A DNA stretch of 64,000 bases from contig NZ_KE386795.1 in the NCBI RefSeq assembly GCF_000428745.1, forward strand, positions 208,692 to 272,691. Reading direction: 5' to 3'. The DNA comes from Veillonella magna DSM 19857 (GTDB taxonomy: Bacteria > Bacillota > Negativicutes > Veillonellales > Veillonellaceae). Below the pieces are notes generated by a model, which worked only from the letters and a program-made list of their open reading frames with translations, did no database searches and was not told the origin of the DNA. Every line of letters begins with the position of its first letter. Positions within the stretch are counted from its first letter, which is position 1. The translations under genes and the position numbers were made by a program. Positions 29,756 to 57,686 of this stretch are shown piece after piece.

Positions 29756-29815
29756 GAAAAAGGTAGCTATTTTCATGATTGCTATGCAAATAATTAATAA
29801 AGGACGGTGACAGTT

Positions 29816-31252
29816 ATGAAAAAGATCACATTATCATCGGGTTTTTCCTTTGATTATACAAATATAATGATGGATGGCGGCGTAGTACAACAGGATATCG
29901 AAGAATCCTTTGAACGCATTGCCAATGCCGTAAAGGCATCTGAACGTGTACGGCGCAGCGGCGTTGTAGACGGTCATCTTTCCAAAGACGGCGAGCCGGA
30001 GGCAGTGTTGTTTCCTCAATTACCGTATATAGAGGAAGGGAATATTAACAGCCCGGCGGTACTTCATCGTTTAGAGGCGCTGGGAAAGCATGCGCAGGCA
30101 GAGATTGATGCGGTAGTGAGCTTTGGTATCGGTGGCTCCTATTTGGGAGGCAAGGTGCTGTTTGATGTACATTGCGGCGAATTTTGGAATTCCATGAGTG
30201 CGGAAGAACGTAATCAATATCCGCGATTATATTTTAGTGGTAATAATGTAGACGGTGATCGCACGGCAGCACTTATTGATCAGCTTTGCCGTGAAGCACA
30301 GGCGAAGAGCGGTAACTACAAGGTTATGCTCATCGTCATTTCTAAATCCGGATCTACGATAGAGCCTATGTCTAATTTTATGGTAGTAGAGCAAGGACTG
30401 CGGGATGCAGGCATTGATTACGAAGTCATTGCTGTGACGGATCCTCATGAAGGCGAAAAGGAAACGCTGCTGCACAGTTTGGCAGTAGAAAAGAATTGGC
30501 CTATCTTTTCCGTACCGGACGGTGTAGGCGGTCGTTTCTCCGTGTTTACCGAAGTAGGTCTTATTATCGGTGCCGTGACCGGCTTTGCCATTCGAGAATT
30601 TTTAGATGGTGCCAAGTCTATGGATGAAGCGTGTCAGACAGGCATTGTTACAGAGAATCCGGCGTTGATGAATGCATTGTTAAAATATATTGCAGCAGAA
30701 AAATACGGTCGCAATATAGAAATTATGATGCCCTACGGTGATAATCTTAAGTCCTTATCGGAATGGTATGTACAGCTGTTGGCGGAATCTCTCGGCAAGG
30801 AGCAAAAGAATGGCAGTCGGTACGGTCGCACACCGGTGGTGGCCGTAGGTACGACGGATATGCATGCGCAGACGCAGGAGCATCAAGAGGGTCGATACAA
30901 TAAAATCGTCAGCTTTGTGCGGATAGCAAAAGGAAAATCGGATCTCGTCGTACCGCATACATACGATACGTACAGTAAACTGGCTGCCTTCAGCGGATTA
31001 CCCTTACATACGATTATGAATACAGCCTTGGAAGCTAACGCAGAAGCATTGACCAGCGACAATCGTTTTAATTGTACGGTGGAATTGCCGCAATTGAATG
31101 CATTTCATTTGGGGGAAATCATGTTCATGTATTGCTGGGCTATTTTCTATGAAGGACAGCTCGCCGGCGTAGATGCGTTTAATCAACCGGGCGTGGAAGT
31201 GTATAAGAAGCTGCTGGGTCCTAAATTGGCAGCGCACAAGGAAGAAAAATAG
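29816..31252 (+). CDS. pgi: Glucose-6-phosphate isomerase
   Basis: Interconverts glucose-6-phosphate and fructose-6-phosphate. The 478-residue protein has the sugar-isomerase blocks SFGIGGSYLGG, ISKSGSTIEP and GVGGRFSVFTEVG, plus the catalytic-type QEHQEGRYNKI segment. Length matches the shorter Gram-positive PGI class. I chose the ATG at 29816, after AAAGGACGG; a GTG three codons earlier overlaps that site. galE follows after 14 bp, so the pair links central carbon flux to UDP-sugar supply. Confidence 0.93.
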   Translation: MKKITLSSGFSFDYTNIMMDGGVVQQDIEESFERIANAVKASERVRRSGVVDGHLSKDGEPEAVLFPQLPYIEEGNINSPAVLHRLEALGKHAQAEIDAVVSFGIGGSYLGGKVLFDVHCGEFWNSMSAEERNQYPRLYFSGNNVDGDRTAALIDQLCREAQAKSGNYKVMLIVISKSGSTIEPMSNFMVVEQGLRDAGIDYEVIAVTDPHEGEKETLLHSLAVEKNWPIFSVPDGVGGRFSVFTEVGLIIGAVTGFAIREFLDGAKSMDEACQTGIVTENPALMNALLKYIAAEKYGRNIEIMMPYGDNLKSLSEWYVQLLAESLGKEQKNGSRYGRTPVVAVGTTDMHAQTQEHQEGRYNKIVSFVRIAKGKSDLVVPHTYDTYSKLAAFSGLPLHTIMNTALEANAEALTSDNRFNCTVELPQLNAFHLGEIMFMYCWAIFYEGQLAGVDAFNQPGVEVYKKLLGPKLAAHKEEK

Positions 31253-31266
31253 GAGGCGTTACAGCT

Positions 31267-32259
31267 ATGAAGTTATTGGTTACCGGCGGTGCCGGTTACA
31301 TCGGCAGTCACACTGTGAAGGCTTTATTGGCAGCCGGTCACGAACCGGTGGTATTGGATAATCTATCGCGAGGGCATGTGGCAGCCGTACCGGCGGGAGT
31401 TACGTTTATTAATAAAGATATTGCGGATCCGAATCTGGCGGAGCTTCTCCGGGAGGAACAGATAGAGGGCATTATGCATTTTGCCGCACATTCGCAAGTA
31501 GGCGAATCTATGATAAACCCTGCGATTTATTATGAAAATAACGTGGTCGGTTCGTTTCGCCTTATCGAAGCAGCACGGCAGGCCGGTGTTCGTTACTTCG
31601 TATTTTCTTCGACAGCTGCCGTATACGGCGAACCGGATGAGGTGCCCATTAAGGAAACAGCAGACTTGCATCCTACTAATGTATATGGACGTACGAAACT
31701 TATGATTGAACATATGCTTCGCGATTACAGTTCCATTTACGGTATGCGCTATGTAGCCTTGCGGTATTTTAATGCGGCCGGTGCCGATCATTCGGGTTGT
31801 ATTGGCGAAGATCACACACCGGAAACACATTTAATTCCGCTTGTATTGCAGGCAGCACAGGGAAAACGTGAGTCTATTACCGTGTTTGGTACAGACTATC
31901 CTACGGCAGACGGTACTTGTATACGCGACTATATCCATGTCAGCGATTTAGCGTCGGCTCATGTGTTGGCAATGGAATATTTACGTGACGGCGGCGAATC
32001 GCAGGTATTTAATTTAGGAACGGGCAATGGTTTTAGTGTTAAGGAAATTATTGATGCGGCTAAGAAAGTGACGGGCATTGATTTTAACGTGACTATCGGT
32101 GAACGCCGTGCCGGTGACCCGGCAAAATTGATTGCTTCTTCGGATAAAATTAAAGATATGCTGGGATGGAAGCCGGTAGCCAGTGAGGTAGAACAAGTAT
32201 TGGCTGATGCATGGCGTTGGCATGAAGCACATCCTAACGGATATGATGACAAAGACTGA
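31267..32259 (+). CDS. galE: GalE, UDP-glucose 4-epimerase
   Basis: Interconverts UDP-glucose and UDP-galactose using bound NAD. The 330-residue protein has GGAGYIGS (7-14), HFAAHSQVGES, the SST block (114-116), catalytic Y140 and K144 (YGRTK), and RYFNAAGAD, all typical of GalE. The ATG follows AGGAGG, 14 bp after the pgi stop. It probably provides UDP-galactose for envelope sugars. It shares only the general fold with the epimerase at 25.6 kb. Confidence 0.93.
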   Translation: MKLLVTGGAGYIGSHTVKALLAAGHEPVVLDNLSRGHVAAVPAGVTFINKDIADPNLAELLREEQIEGIMHFAAHSQVGESMINPAIYYENNVVGSFRLIEAARQAGVRYFVFSSTAAVYGEPDEVPIKETADLHPTNVYGRTKLMIEHMLRDYSSIYGMRYVALRYFNAAGADHSGCIGEDHTPETHLIPLVLQAAQGKRESITVFGTDYPTADGTCIRDYIHVSDLASAHVLAMEYLRDGGESQVFNLGTGNGFSVKEIIDAAKKVTGIDFNVTIGERRAGDPAKLIASSDKIKDMLGWKPVASEVEQVLADAWRWHEAHPNGYDDKD

Positions 32260-32291
32260 TGAAGAATACGGAATAAACTAGCAAGTAGTGA

Positions 32292-32321
32292 TTGTTCTAC
32301 GGCAGAAAAGTAGTCTATTAT
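32292..32321 (+). promoter_or_regulatory. Possible promoter before the secretin module
   Basis: TTGTTC (32292-32297), 18-bp spacer, TATTAT (32316-32321). It lies about 40 bp before the ATG at 32361. Confidence 0.35.
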
Positions 32322-32360
32322 AAGTGAAAGAAGATAAATAAGTAAAAGAAGGCAAAACAT

Positions 32361-33047
32361 ATGAATATAAAAAGACCGAACCGACAGGCAGTATGGGATA
32401 TAGTAAAAAGAAAGGGCCGACTCCTGTGTGGAGCGGTCTTTTTATTTTGCAGTATAGGTATATACGGTTGGCATGTAGGCGCATTACATACTGTTTTTGG
32501 ACATACATTGGCAGCAAATACAACGTCAACGATAGATGCACATAATAGAGGATATGAATTGACTGAGGGCAAACAGGTAACAGACGACGGAGAAAAAGAG
32601 TTAGTAAGTGTAGCCAATAGTCAGCGAGCTTGGCCATTGGAGAATCCCTTCGACGGAATTATACATCACGGAGATACGACTGAGAGTATGTCGATGGAAT
32701 TAGTTCCGCTACAAGATAGAGGGGGAGAGAATACAGCAAAAAGACAGCGCGGAAGCAGTGAGATGAGAGTAGGAAACTATGTACAGGCGCTGCGGAGCCG
32801 GACACCACAAGCATTACAGGGAGATGCTTCGACGTTGCCGAAGAAAAGCGTCTCCTCTTCTCGAAATAAAACGGTTACGCTACAAGGTATCGTAACCGGG
32901 GGACATCCGGTAGCACTTTTGCGTGTAGGTGGGCAGGAAGAAGCCTGCGGAGTAGGTGAAGGTGTAGGCGGTGTGCGTATTGTTTCTATTGCAGATACCA
33001 GCGTTGTCATTGCCGACGGCACCGGTACGAGAAGAATATATTTATAG
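32361..33047 (+). CDS. PilP/GspC-like inner-membrane secretin partner
   Basis: A 228-residue protein, not firmly recognised. It has a basic N-terminal tail, one membrane segment (about residues 22-44), a long Ser/Thr/Arg-rich periplasmic linker, and a C-terminal beta-rich domain (about 170-228) beginning VTLQGIVTGGHPVALLRVGG. The last part resembles the homology region of GspC or the beta domain of PilP, which couple the inner membrane to the secretin. The next gene, 3 bp later, is a secretin, which supports this. The ATG has AGAAGG upstream. A terminator-like hairpin lies inside codons 17-28. Confidence 0.65.
   Translation: MNIKRPNRQAVWDIVKRKGRLLCGAVFLFCSIGIYGWHVGALHTVFGHTLAANTTSTIDAHNRGYELTEGKQVTDDGEKELVSVANSQRAWPLENPFDGIIHHGDTTESMSMELVPLQDRGGENTAKRQRGSSEMRVGNYVQALRSRTPQALQGDASTLPKKSVSSSRNKTVTLQGIVTGGHPVALLRVGGQEEACGVGEGVGGVRIVSIADTSVVIADGTGTRRIYL
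32411..32448 (+). terminator. Terminator-like hairpin inside a coding region
   Basis: Arms 32411-32424 (AAAGGGCCGACTCC) and 32430-32441 (GGAGCGGTCTTT) pair along most of their length with one bulged A and a TGTGT loop, followed by TTATTTT. It has the full form of an intrinsic terminator yet lies 51 bp into the secretin-partner gene, where its T-rich arm encodes part of the membrane helix. It may attenuate the module, or terminate galE read-through. Confidence 0.6.
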
Positions 33048-33059
33048 GAGATGGAATAC

Positions 33060-34304
33060 ATGGTAATCGGGTATGTACCTAAATCGTTAGTAAAGAAATT
33101 TATGTTCATTATGGTAGCTGTGATAACGGTGAGCCTGTGGGGCGGGCGCACTACAGTGGAAGCCGCCGTAACAATGCATGTTAATAATGCCAATATAGCC
33201 GCATTAGTACGGGGGATTGCCAGATCGGAGGGGATTCCTATTATAGGGACGGAAACCTTATCCGGCGAAGTAACGGCTGACTTTAATCACGAAAGCGGTA
33301 AGGAAGCTATCTATATGTTGGGAAAACTAAAGCATTTTTCCGTAACGGAAGAAAAGGGAATTCTCGTAGTAGATGGCAGCGGAATGGAAAACAAAGAGGA
33401 TCGACAGGCACATATTATTGTCCCAAAACATTTATCGCCGCCGGCACTGGCCGACGCATTGGCAGCAGTTATTGATACGAAACGGTGCCGTGTTATAAAA
33501 GCTACCAATCAAATTATGGTGTATGCTACGCCGGCCGAATGGCGTCGTATTACAGAGGTGCTGGATACGATAGATCGTATACCGCAACAGGTTCATATTG
33601 AAGCGGCCGTGGTAGCTATGGAGGCTTCTTATATGAAGGAAGCCGGAATTGAATGGAGTTGGCAAAGCTTGACTGGGCATGGAGAAGATAGCACGCATGA
33701 ATACGGCGCGATTACTTACGGTAAGCTGCTGCGAAGCGATAGGTACCACGTATTAGTAAAACCGACACTTCATGCGTCGGAAACGGAAGGTAAAAGTGTA
33801 CTTATTACAAAACCATCCATCATGACGGTAAACGGAGAGGAAGCAAAAATTCTTATCGGTGATAAGCTGCCTGTATTGGTAGAAAATCGCGAAGACGGTG
33901 AAACGAGAACGACCGTGCGCTATGAAGAGTCGGGGATTCGATTGACCTGTACACCATATGTTACATCCGACGGTAGTGTAGATGCAGATATTTTTGCAGA
34001 GGTCAGCAGCCCTTCCATGGTGTCCGAATTAAAGGCGTACAGAATTACATCACGAGAAGCACACACGCGTGTACATTTACGGCGGGGAGAAGTCTTGGTT
34101 ATCGGCGGTCTGATGGATAATCGCACAGGACGCCAGGAAAGTAAAGTGCCATTGTTAGGGGATTTACCGTTGGTAGGTCATTTATTTCGCCATGCGCGAC
34201 GTACGAAAGACAGCGTGGAGCTTTGTATTTTAGTAAAAGCCGATGTGATTCCCTCTGTCGGCTATGACGAGGGACCTTTACAATACGCGCCGGATAGAGG
34301 ATAA
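33060..34304 (+). CDS. Compact secretin (type II/IV pilus family)
   Basis: Outer-membrane secretin, 414 residues, unusually small. It has a signal peptide (hydrophobic core about residues 14-24, likely cleavage after VEA), an N0/STN-like domain (about 35-105), an N1-like domain (about 110-175), and the C-terminal secretin domain with VPLLGDLPLVGHLFRH near the end. PilQ and GspD are usually longer because of extra N domains. The ATG at 33060 lies 9 bp after AGGAG. The gene pairs with the PilP/GspC-like gene upstream; no other pilus or secretion genes are near. Confidence 0.85.
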   Translation: MVIGYVPKSLVKKFMFIMVAVITVSLWGGRTTVEAAVTMHVNNANIAALVRGIARSEGIPIIGTETLSGEVTADFNHESGKEAIYMLGKLKHFSVTEEKGILVVDGSGMENKEDRQAHIIVPKHLSPPALADALAAVIDTKRCRVIKATNQIMVYATPAEWRRITEVLDTIDRIPQQVHIEAAVVAMEASYMKEAGIEWSWQSLTGHGEDSTHEYGAITYGKLLRSDRYHVLVKPTLHASETEGKSVLITKPSIMTVNGEEAKILIGDKLPVLVENREDGETRTTVRYEESGIRLTCTPYVTSDGSVDADIFAEVSSPSMVSELKAYRITSREAHTRVHLRRGEVLVIGGLMDNRTGRQESKVPLLGDLPLVGHLFRHARRTKDSVELCILVKADVIPSVGYDEGPLQYAPDRG

Positions 34305-54792: not shown

Positions 54793-56043
54793 ATGACTAT
54801 GAGTATGGCGGCTACGCACGCGAAAGGCAAGAAAGCAAAGGATAATATTTTTGTTATGAATTCACGTGCGCAGGAAGACGCAAAAAAAATCGGTAAGGAA
54901 AACGTATTGAATGGTACCTTAGGTTCTATTTTGGACGAAAACGGGGATATCGTTTTCTTGAAAACCGTAGAACATGAATACCTTAATTTACCGCGCAACG
55001 AATACGTAGCCTATGCTCCGATTGCAGGCTTGCCGGAATTTTTGGATGCAGCAATCAGTGAATGCTTCGGTGAATCGAAACCGGATGCATATCTTGAAGC
55101 GGTAGCGACAGCCGGCGGTACAGGTGGCATTCATCACTTGGTACATAATTATACGAATCCGGGGGATACAGTGTTGACTGCTGATTGGTATTGGGGTGCT
55201 TATCAACAGATTTGTGGCGATAATCATAGAACATTAGATACATATCAACTCTTTACACCGGATAATACGTTTAATTTTGAAGCGTTTAAAGCAAAGGCTA
55301 CAGAGATAGCTGCGAAACAGGAAAATGTAGTATGGATTTTTAATACACCGGGGAACAATCCTACGGGCTTTAGTTTAACCGAAGAGGATTGGGACAAAGT
55401 AATTTCTTTTGCAAAGGAATTGGTTGCCAAAGGGAAAAACAAGGTGATTATTGCTTGCGATGTAGCATATATTGATTATTCCGGAGAAAAGCAATCGGTA
55501 CGTCGCTTCTTTAAAAAATTTGGCAACTTGCCTAAGGAAATTCTCGGTGTTGTTTGCTATAGCTTATCCAAAGGATTTACCATGTACGGTCAGCGTGTAG
55601 GCGCTATGATCGGTATTACTTCCGATAAAGATGTACATGAGGAGTTCCATGAAATTAATCAGTTAACGTCTCGTGCAACTTGGTCTAATATTTGTAGACC
55701 GGCTATGCGCACGATGGCAAATATCGTACACGATCCGGCCAAGTTGGCAGCGTACGAAAAAGAAAGAAATGAGTATTGCCGATTAATTAACGAACGAGCA
55801 CAGATTTTCGTAGAGGAAGCAAAAGAAGTCGGATTGCCTTGTTTACCGTATTGCGGCGGTTTCTTCTTAACGATTCCGACGGAACATTCTAAGGAAGTTG
55901 TAGAAGAATTAACTAAGGAACATGTATATGTTATTCCGTTAGGACATGGTATACGTGTTGCGGCATGCAGCATTCCGAAGCGCCAGATGAAAGGTTTGGC
56001 AACGACGATGCATACGATTATGAAACGATTGGGGTATTTATAA
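54793..56043 (+). CDS. PLP aminotransferase, class I/II
   Basis: Fold-type I pyridoxal-phosphate aminotransferase, 416 residues, related to aromatic or aspartate aminotransferases. It has VATAGGTGGIHH for cofactor phosphate binding, NTPGNNPTG, the IIACDVAYIDYSG segment with the conserved Asp, and SLSKGF with K260 as the Schiff-base lysine. The amino-acid substrate cannot be told from sequence. The stop overlaps the start of the kinase-like gene by 1 bp, so the two are coupled. Confidence 0.85.
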   Translation: MTMSMAATHAKGKKAKDNIFVMNSRAQEDAKKIGKENVLNGTLGSILDENGDIVFLKTVEHEYLNLPRNEYVAYAPIAGLPEFLDAAISECFGESKPDAYLEAVATAGGTGGIHHLVHNYTNPGDTVLTADWYWGAYQQICGDNHRTLDTYQLFTPDNTFNFEAFKAKATEIAAKQENVVWIFNTPGNNPTGFSLTEEDWDKVISFAKELVAKGKNKVIIACDVAYIDYSGEKQSVRRFFKKFGNLPKEILGVVCYSLSKGFTMYGQRVGAMIGITSDKDVHEEFHEINQLTSRATWSNICRPAMRTMANIVHDPAKLAAYEKERNEYCRLINERAQIFVEEAKEVGLPCLPYCGGFFLTIPTEHSKEVVEELTKEHVYVIPLGHGIRVAACSIPKRQMKGLATTMHTIMKRLGYL

Positions 56044-57686
56044 TGAATATAACGGTTACCGATGCTAACGGCACAGCTGTAACCGTACCAAGTGGGACGA
56101 CAGTAGGTGAGGTAGCTCGCCTACTGCCGTTTTTTACTACGGAGAATGCTGTGCTAGCAATCATACATAATGATATTTGTGATTTTCAGACGGCCTTGTA
56201 TGAAGATGTAACGATACGATGGTTACCTCTGAATACGCGAGAAGGATTTATGGCGTATCAGCGAAGTCTTATCTTACTGATGGTGCGCGCGGTAAATGAT
56301 GAATTTCCGGGAGCCACTGTTAAAGTGCTGCATACACTGGGCAATGCCTTATATTGTGAATTAACACATACGAACGGGCGCAGTGCCGGTTACGAAGATA
56401 TACAACGTATACAGCGAAGAATGCGTCTAATCCAGCGTGAGGAACCGGCCATAAAAAAAGAATTTATGTCTAAAAGCGATTGCTTACGCTATGTGCGTAA
56501 GCATGGAAATGATTTTGATTGTAAAATTCTGGAATCTCTGGATTTACCGGAAATAACGTATTACCAAACGGGAAAAACGGCAGATTATTATTTTGGTCCT
56601 ATGGTCCCTGATTTTTCTTATTTGCGTTACTTTTCGTTAGAGTTATACACGCCGGGATTTTTACTTCGCTATCCTGATTGGGAGCGACCGCGTGAATTGG
56701 CAACATATAAAGAGGTTCCTAAATTTGCAAAGGTGTTTTTGGAAGCTAAAGAGTGGGGGCGTATGCTCGACTGTAGTTATGTAAGTCAGCTAAACGATCA
56801 CATTCATGACGGTAGTATTACAGAGATTATCGATTTGGCCGAAGCACTTCAGGAAAAGCGTCGGGCACAGATGGCAGACTATGTAGTTTCGCAGAAGCCA
56901 GCGATTCGTTTAATTTTGGTAGCCGGGCCATCCTCGGCGGGAAAGACAACCTTTACCAAACGTTTTTGTACACAACTCAAGGTCAATGGATTGCGTCCTA
57001 TCATGCTATCCTTAGATGATTATTTTGTGGAACGCGCCTACACGCCACGCTTGCCTGACGGAAGTTATGATTTCGAATCGATTCATGCAATTGATGTAGG
57101 CTTTTTTTCACAACAACTATTGGCACTGTATGCCGGTGAAGAAGTACGACTGCCACAATTTAATTTTTTAACCGGTACCCGTGAATGGCAAGATAAAACT
57201 GTTCGGTTAACGCCGGGATCGCCTGTTGTTGTGGAAGGGTTACATGCGTTGAATGATGACCTTAGTCGCGTCGTGCCGCGCTATGAGAAGTGTAAAATTT
57301 ATTTGGGGGCATTAACGCAGTTGGCGATTAATGATCATAATCGTATTTCTACATCCTATACACGTTTGGTGCGACGATTGGTGCGAGATCACCAATTTCG
57401 TGGACATGGTGCGGAACGTACATTGGAAATGTGGGACAATGTGCGACGCGGAGAGGAAAGTAATATTTTCCCGTTCCAAGAAGATGCGGATATGATTTTT
57501 AATTCCGCCTTATTATATGAGTTGCCGGTGTTAAAGGGATTGGCCGTTCCTTTATTGGAGGCAATTACTCCGGAGAGTCCGTATTACTATCGGGCACATC
57601 AGCTGCTTCGCTTTTTATCACCTTTCAAGGTATTAGATCCCAGCTATGTACCGAGTAATAGTATTTTAAAAGAATTTATTGGTTAG
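56043..57686 (+). CDS. TGS-containing uridine-kinase-like protein
   Basis: A 547-residue protein: an N-terminal TGS-like beta domain (about 1-60), a threonyl-tRNA-synthetase-like second domain (about 60-230), and a C-terminal uridine kinase / phosphoribulokinase domain (about 285-490) with Walker A GPSSAGKT (295-302), then SLDDYFVER and VVEGLHALN. This matches a nucleoside kinase family found in Firmicutes and Thermotoga. The substrate is uncertain. It starts within the aminotransferase stop (TAATG). Confidence 0.82.
   Translation: MNITVTDANGTAVTVPSGTTVGEVARLLPFFTTENAVLAIIHNDICDFQTALYEDVTIRWLPLNTREGFMAYQRSLILLMVRAVNDEFPGATVKVLHTLGNALYCELTHTNGRSAGYEDIQRIQRRMRLIQREEPAIKKEFMSKSDCLRYVRKHGNDFDCKILESLDLPEITYYQTGKTADYYFGPMVPDFSYLRYFSLELYTPGFLLRYPDWERPRELATYKEVPKFAKVFLEAKEWGRMLDCSYVSQLNDHIHDGSITEIIDLAEALQEKRRAQMADYVVSQKPAIRLILVAGPSSAGKTTFTKRFCTQLKVNGLRPIMLSLDDYFVERAYTPRLPDGSYDFESIHAIDVGFFSQQLLALYAGEEVRLPQFNFLTGTREWQDKTVRLTPGSPVVVEGLHALNDDLSRVVPRYEKCKIYLGALTQLAINDHNRISTSYTRLVRRLVRDHQFRGHGAERTLEMWDNVRRGEESNIFPFQEDADMIFNSALLYELPVLKGLAVPLLEAITPESPYYYRAHQLLRFLSPFKVLDPSYVPSNSILKEFIG

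Follow-up and report, generated by a model that had tools for sequence, protein, structure and literature searches.

The secretin-partner locus of V. magna

We analysed a 64,000-nt stretch of the Veillonella magna DSM 19857 genome (hereafter the window; contig NZ_KE386795.1, positions 208,692 to 272,691 of the forward strand), in which pgi and galE are followed by a secretin-partner gene and a secretin gene (Table 1). A 101-nt gap separates the galE stop codon from the partner start codon. The partner protein of the window had no Pfam match; among 46 members of the partner family, four matched T2SSC, the best of them weakly (E 0.0092), and a profile of 46 partner relatives gave weak matches to GspC chains (E 0.014 and 0.067). 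The secretin scored under the curated cut-offs of the NCBIfam GspD and PilQ models. No relatives of the partner protein were found in plasmids, and none of the secretin were found in a search of the genome contigs collection.

Table 1. Features of the window and of further loci. Coordinates without a prefix are window positions; L139, L179 and L181 are other surveyed pieces of contig C1.
Feature	Coordinates	Strand	Remarks
pgi gene	29807-31252	+	upstream of galE
galE-like epimerase gene	31267-32259	+	Pfam Epimerase 2.2e-63; presumed upstream unit ending at the hairpin
Secretin-partner ORF, 228 aa	32361-33047	+	N-terminal-side membrane helix; weakly GspC-like C-terminal part
Start region able to pair with the putative terminator in an alternative long fold	32364-32390	+	
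Putative terminator hairpin in partner ORF	32410-32443	+	14-15 bp stem, bulged A at 32420, loop 32425-32429
T-tract TTTTTATTTT	32439-32448	+	overlaps part of the 3' arm; encodes F-L-F
Secretin gene (GspD/PilQ-like)	33051-34304	+	Pfam Secretin 4e-39
Second window hairpin	56096-56131	+	53 nt into uridine-kinase-like ORF 56043-57686, which overlaps an aminotransferase stop codon
prmA, behind dnaJ	L139:13688-14539	-	hairpin 30 nt after start; family set L190-L217
comF, overlapping recD2 by 4 nt	L181:5524-6195	-	family set L246-L273
hemW, behind lepA	L179:10741-11913	-	hairpin spans start region; family set L218-L245

An earlier note on this DNA had described a hairpin with one bulged base, a TGTGT loop and a T-tract, lying 51 bp into the partner ORF and encoding part of a membrane helix with its T-rich arm. 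Both the structure and its placement were confirmed. The 5' arm (32411-32424, AAAGGGCCGACTCC) begins at the 51st base of the ORF, counted from the ATG at 32361, and pairs across the TGTGT loop (32425-32429) with the 3' arm (32430-32441, GGAGCGGTCTTT). The fold energy of 32410-32443 was -18.8 kcal/mol, with a 5-nt loop and a single bulged A. A U-rich tract with 8 T in the best 9-nt window follows the stem and is kept in relatives, and the T-rich side of the hairpin encodes F-L-F-C of the predicted membrane helix.

The same note had offered an alternative, namely that the real gene starts later and the hairpin ends galE. The partner protein diverges fast, but in relatives the N-terminal peptide K-x-G-R-L-x-x-G-A-V-F-L-F-C persists across the hairpin. 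Upstream of the hairpin, 5 of 13 codons differ among the six close relatives, with the third codon position affected at 4 of the 5 variable sites. Since the peptide is conserved both before and through the hairpin and changes fall mostly at third positions, a later start is unlikely, and we rejected a gene start downstream of the hairpin. The other half of that alternative fared better: the hairpin likely does end galE transcripts.

A terminator-like appearance is weak evidence alone, because a generic terminator scan found 11 sites against a shuffle mean of 11.5, with no excess, and its list did not include the site at 32410-32443; conservation was therefore taken as the test. The 90-nt stretch folded with a z of -4.64 relative to 200 dinucleotide shuffles, but the lowest-energy fold there is not the putative terminator itself; it is a longer, alternative hairpin involving the start region. 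Rfam gave no matches up to E 1 across 32000-33200, and thus no catalogued RNA family or riboswitch. A repeated element was rejected, the stem-loop core being found once in the genome with at most one mismatch allowed; so was a bidirectional terminator, as the reverse-strand T-run after the stem in V. magna is absent from the relatives compared.

Conservation of the hairpin and its position relative to the partner start codon

We followed the hairpin through V. magna's own family (family 1; 28 genomes in four genera) and a second family of the same order (family 2; 17 genomes, 16 with a secretin, G060 having no secretin match). Of the 44 genomes scored, 43 had a terminator-like hairpin in the interval from the upstream gene to the secretin: 30 within the partner ORF and 13 shortly upstream of the partner start codon. 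The T-tract was always on the side of sense transcription. In family 1 the hairpin was intragenic in 15 of 28 genomes, comprising all 7 of the own genus, all 6 of the second, the only member of the third, and 1 of 14 in the fourth (G026). In another 12 genomes, all of the fourth genus, the interval from galE to the partner start contained a strong hairpin with its T-tract. None was seen in G013, in which 123 nt of contig precede the start codon. In family 2, 15 of 16 genomes had a strong hairpin with a T-rich tail 128-158 nt into the partner ORF, after the membrane helix; in the exception, G043, the hairpin precedes the ORF and has a 15-nt loop. A pattern built on the relatives' hairpin matched ten contigs exactly, all from Veillonella, including V. 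ratti, V. seminalis and V. intestinalis. In two further families of the order, none of 7 scorable partner genes and 1 of 22 control genes scored, and G038 gave a single weak, non-compact match upstream of the secretin (-14.4).

Position went with the distance between the genes, as judged with hand-picked start codons and G057 left out. All 25 genomes in which the gap from the upstream stop to the partner start is at most 17 nt, overlaps included, had an intragenic hairpin, and among the 17 genomes with a gap of at least 101 nt it was intergenic in 13 and intragenic in 4 (G000, G008, G026 and G041). Lack of room is therefore not the whole reason for the intragenic position. Mapping the two labels onto a tree of 50 secretins took 4 changes for intragenic and 3 for intergenic, numbers forced by well-supported branches; the labels were set by eye from scan output and some placements are on long branches. 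By this tree, there were three or more moves of the hairpin into or out of the ORF.

These positions bear on the attenuation proposed in the earlier note, whereby ribosomes that cover the hairpin would allow transcription into the secretin. Such ribosomes would be translating the partner or arriving from galE, and lagging translation would let the hairpin form and stop transcription. The hairpin does lie within the partner ORF, behind a conserved start, and it is intragenic in 30 of the 43 hairpin-bearing genomes; in 25 genomes the upstream stop codon overlaps the partner start or precedes it by at most 17 nt, which would favour coupled translation. The family 2 hairpin falls within the range in which E. 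coli ribosomes can suppress terminators (PMC4824070), and pyrL (PMC5021804) and bmrB (PMC4191407) provide precedents. Against this, the hairpin is outside the ORF in 13 genomes, and where it precedes the start codon (12 family 1 genomes and G043), ribosomes translating the partner cannot cover it. Moreover, translation has little effect on E. coli terminators located within 100 bp of the start of a coding region: one placed 30 bp into an ORF loses about 10% of its efficiency to translation and keeps about 90% (PMC4824070). There are also signs that polymerase may outrun ribosomes in the V. magna genome. Both the relocation of the hairpin outside the ORF and the finding from E. coli speak against ribosome gating as the general mode, and we consider it unlikely.

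Selection on the RNA pairing

The conserved peptide K-x-G-R-L-x-x-G-A-V-F-L-F has codons that can form part of the stem, and the hairpin might thus be a by-product of peptide and codon use without an RNA function. When hairpin energies were compared with those of 5000 synonymous recodings drawn from local codon use, however, the native sequence was extreme in all 28 sequences tested (of 30 intragenic sequences, G055 and G057 being left out), with z from -3.06 to -7.8 and P at most 0.005. For the window hairpin, z was -4.67 (P 0.0002), or -4.49 (P 0.0002) with an alternative codon table. Compensatory changes also altered the protein itself, giving GAVF, GVAF and GATV. Finally, G-R-[LS]-x-x-G is present in 15 of 15 intragenic family 1 members and is absent from the N-termini of fourth-genus members that lack an intragenic hairpin. 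We read the motif that goes with the hairpin as an RNA constraint probably written into the protein, through few independent events. A mere by-product is, given these results, scarcely credible.

The earlier note had also proposed comparing related genomes for compensatory changes, and the outcome was positive in both families. In family 1 (alignment A1, 15 sequences), 91.7% of cells across 13 pairs were paired and 4 pairs had changed on both sides; none of 500 shuffles reached the covariation score, and 26 had at least as many doubly changed pairs. In family 2 (alignment A2, 14 of 15 sequences, without G057), 86.8% of cells across 17 pairs were paired and 13 pairs had changed on both sides, with the score reached by 0 of 500 shuffles and the doubly changed number by 1 of 500. 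Identical rows were used once (13 and 12 rows), the rows of both alignments were picked by eye from scan output, and G047 at least is out of register in A2 and was counted as unpaired. The sequences are related, and the tests are to be taken as non-independent trials.

Codon variation followed the same outline. Among the six close relatives, 1 of the 13 hairpin codons varies, in the loop, as against 18 of 21 just downstream, and in the second genus the corresponding figures are 3 of 11 and 11 of 17. A strict scan of the two families scored 28 of 43 partner genes (G057 left out; the hairpin of G039 was missed though present) but only 1 of 119 control genes from the same loci (pgi, galE, secretin and abcF). 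The suggestion in the earlier note that one DNA segment has a dual use holds in part: the start of the membrane anchor coincides with a terminator-like RNA element under selection, and ribosome-gated attenuation was not supported.

The alternative long fold raised another explanation, in which the start region pairs with the putative terminator and hides the start codon, thereby limiting translation of the partner or of terminated RNA that has no stop codon. The comparison with synonymous leaders covered 11 sequences, G002 not being among them. All 5 own-genus relatives tested had a long fold better than that of synonymous leaders, with z from -4.0 to -5.5, and the start codon had an unpaired probability of at most 0.09 in six own-genus relatives (L003-L008, first 85 nt). 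The effect was absent from five sequences of other genera and from the window genome itself, where this antiterminator-type fold was no better than with synonymous leaders (z -0.01) and the AUG was open; furthermore, the own-genus relatives are close, so few events are represented. A switch of this kind is very improbable as the explanation of the hairpin. For the own-genus relatives, we speculate that start-region pairing might silence terminated RNAs that lack a stop codon.

Hairpins embedded at other loci

A census of 688 kb of contig C1 (the window, L120-L139 and L178-L189), with 617 crude ORFs, gave 43 sense intragenic terminator-like sites, most with imperfect stems. Eleven of these lay within the opening 100 nt of an ORF, a portion totalling 61.7 kb, and 32 in the remaining 536.6 kb, which looks denser near starts, the starts being crude. 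Two candidates (L130:12428 and L132:874) were rejected as embedded hairpins since both precede the likely start, and a third (L136:5946) was rejected because it looks spurious.

Three clean sites, in prmA, comF and hemW, which in the V. magna genome follow dnaJ, recD2 and lepA, were traced through the 28 family 1 genomes. The prmA hairpin was found in 28 of 28, with z from -3.1 to -5.5 against the synonymous null, and 6 of its 15 pairs had changed on both sides; the covariation score was reached by 0 of 500 shuffles. By scan, the comF hairpin was likewise present in 28 of 28, some 200-220 nt after the match begins; z ranged from -2.98 to -6.87 in the 27 sequences tested (L247 left out), and 6 of 15 pairs were doubly changed among 26 aligned sequences (L247 and L254 left out). 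The hemW hairpin exceeded the synonymous expectation in 28 of 28 (z -2.67 to -6.14), and the terminator scan scored 20 of 22 pattern-parsed sequences; the hemW T-tract is short. The second hairpin of the window was also stable (-23.0 kcal/mol) and extreme against its synonymous null (z -5.41, P <1/5000), and it was not seen in its one close homologue. The PrmA, ComF, secretin and uridine-kinase assignments are from model matches under the curated cut-offs.

It is possible, at somewhat less than even odds, that terminators embedded in the next gene (galE/partner, dnaJ/prmA, recD2/comF and lepA/hemW) constitute a systematic, conserved form of gene control in these diderm Firmicutes, in which the secretin, the ComF-family gene and others would be expressed via read-through only and RNA pairing would shape several proteins.

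Two side observations concern the relation of transcription to translation in this genome. Across 298 crude ORFs of the window and L120-L139, the median purine fraction was 0.547, so that genes are purine-rich; B. subtilis genes have 53-54% purine (PMC13323073). Among 76 intergenic terminator-like sites at most 200 nt from a stop codon, 12 begin at most 10 nt from the stop, again by crude ORFs. Purine-rich genes and hairpins near stops are what would be expected if polymerase outruns ribosomes.

A putative terminator of the upstream unit

The explanation that we favour, with a probability of roughly two in three, is that the hairpin is an intrinsic (Rho-independent) terminator of the pgi-galE unit that is housed in the next gene, the partner and secretin being expressed by read-through. 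The hairpin and T-tract would stop pgi-galE transcription just inside the next gene, within its first codons. With the hairpin lying downstream of the ORF start, any polymerase making the partner-secretin mRNA must cross the hairpin; all partner transcripts do so, and the partner and secretin would therefore be made mainly by read-through, probably with an output that is low relative to the metabolic enzymes. In the tight gene pairs, the terminator may be kept in coding sequence for want of intergenic space, and the RNA pairing would then dictate part of the partner protein sequence. This explanation is supported by G041, G047 and G059, which keep the hairpin with pgi, not galE, directly upstream, and which led us to reject a hairpin specific to galE. 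Comparable behaviour is known from operons of Clostridia, where internal terminators set ratios (PMC9045158), and from B. subtilis, where dprA is expressed via read-through from sucCD (PMC12350095).

As a counterpoint, the hairpin RNA could act as a block to exonucleases instead of as a terminator. Transcription would then stop at a later point, Rho being one possible agent, and the hairpin would only define and protect the trimmed 3' end of the galE mRNA, an alternative that has been proposed and left open for the B. subtilis sucCD-dprA hairpin (PMC12350095). The short T-tract of hemW speaks for such a barrier. In family 1 the peptide by itself accounts for the T content of the tract (P 0.07 to 0.78; for the window site, P 0.51), which counts against the terminator reading. 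A barrier can do without a T-tract, but the stem has a T-rich tail behind it in all the intragenic cases listed; in family 2, where the same comparison gave P from 0.0006 to 0.18, such a tail is rarer than the peptide would lead one to expect in 4 of the 13 sequences tested (P <0.005). An exonuclease barrier seems improbable to us.

Relation to known systems and implications

Most of the terminators described so far within coding sequence are isolated sites or belong to short leader ORFs. Precedents exist for attenuators in leader ORFs, for ORF-internal 3' ends and for internal terminators that set ratios. The arrangement described here resembles that of dprA and sucCD in B. subtilis, in which a promoterless DNA-uptake gene lies behind a metabolic operon with a terminator-like hairpin between them and read-through is needed for transformation (PMC12350095). 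Rho is the main stop there, and the part of that report examined describes neither conservation nor covariation of the hairpin (PMC12350095); a role in DNA uptake is, unlike that of dprA, presumed for the secretin here. In cellulolytic Clostridia, a leaky terminator within an operon likewise sets the ratio of upstream to downstream mRNA, but those terminators are intergenic (PMC9045158), whereas in 30 of our 43 hairpin-bearing genomes the site is within the downstream ORF.

An intrinsic terminator inside a translated ORF is also found in B. subtilis bmrB (PMC4191407) and E. coli pyrL (PMC4824070, PMC5021804). These are short regulatory leader ORFs that sense translation or UTP, whereas the ORF here is full-length and encodes a conserved protein. 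The ORF-internal 3' ends of E. coli are similar in that they represent a stop inside coding sequence, as we infer here; they were mapped in one species (PMC7815308), whereas the present element shows covariation in two families and is found again at several loci. A test of coding-region terminators in E. coli showed that they can work within the first 100 bp, but in an artificial construct (PMC4824070).

Among the papers listed by our literature search, which had partial journal coverage, none reported conserved, covarying terminators in the coding sequence of these bacteria. What would be new is a conserved, covarying terminator in full-length coding sequence that is repeated at several loci. 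Because the genes are full-length, the covariation extends over two families and several loci are involved, coding sequence and stop signal would have evolved together. If termination is confirmed, terminator searches limited to intergenic regions would miss such sites, and some conserved peptide motifs would be RNA constraints. Expression of the secretin and of ComF could then be tested as read-through from the neighbouring housekeeping genes.
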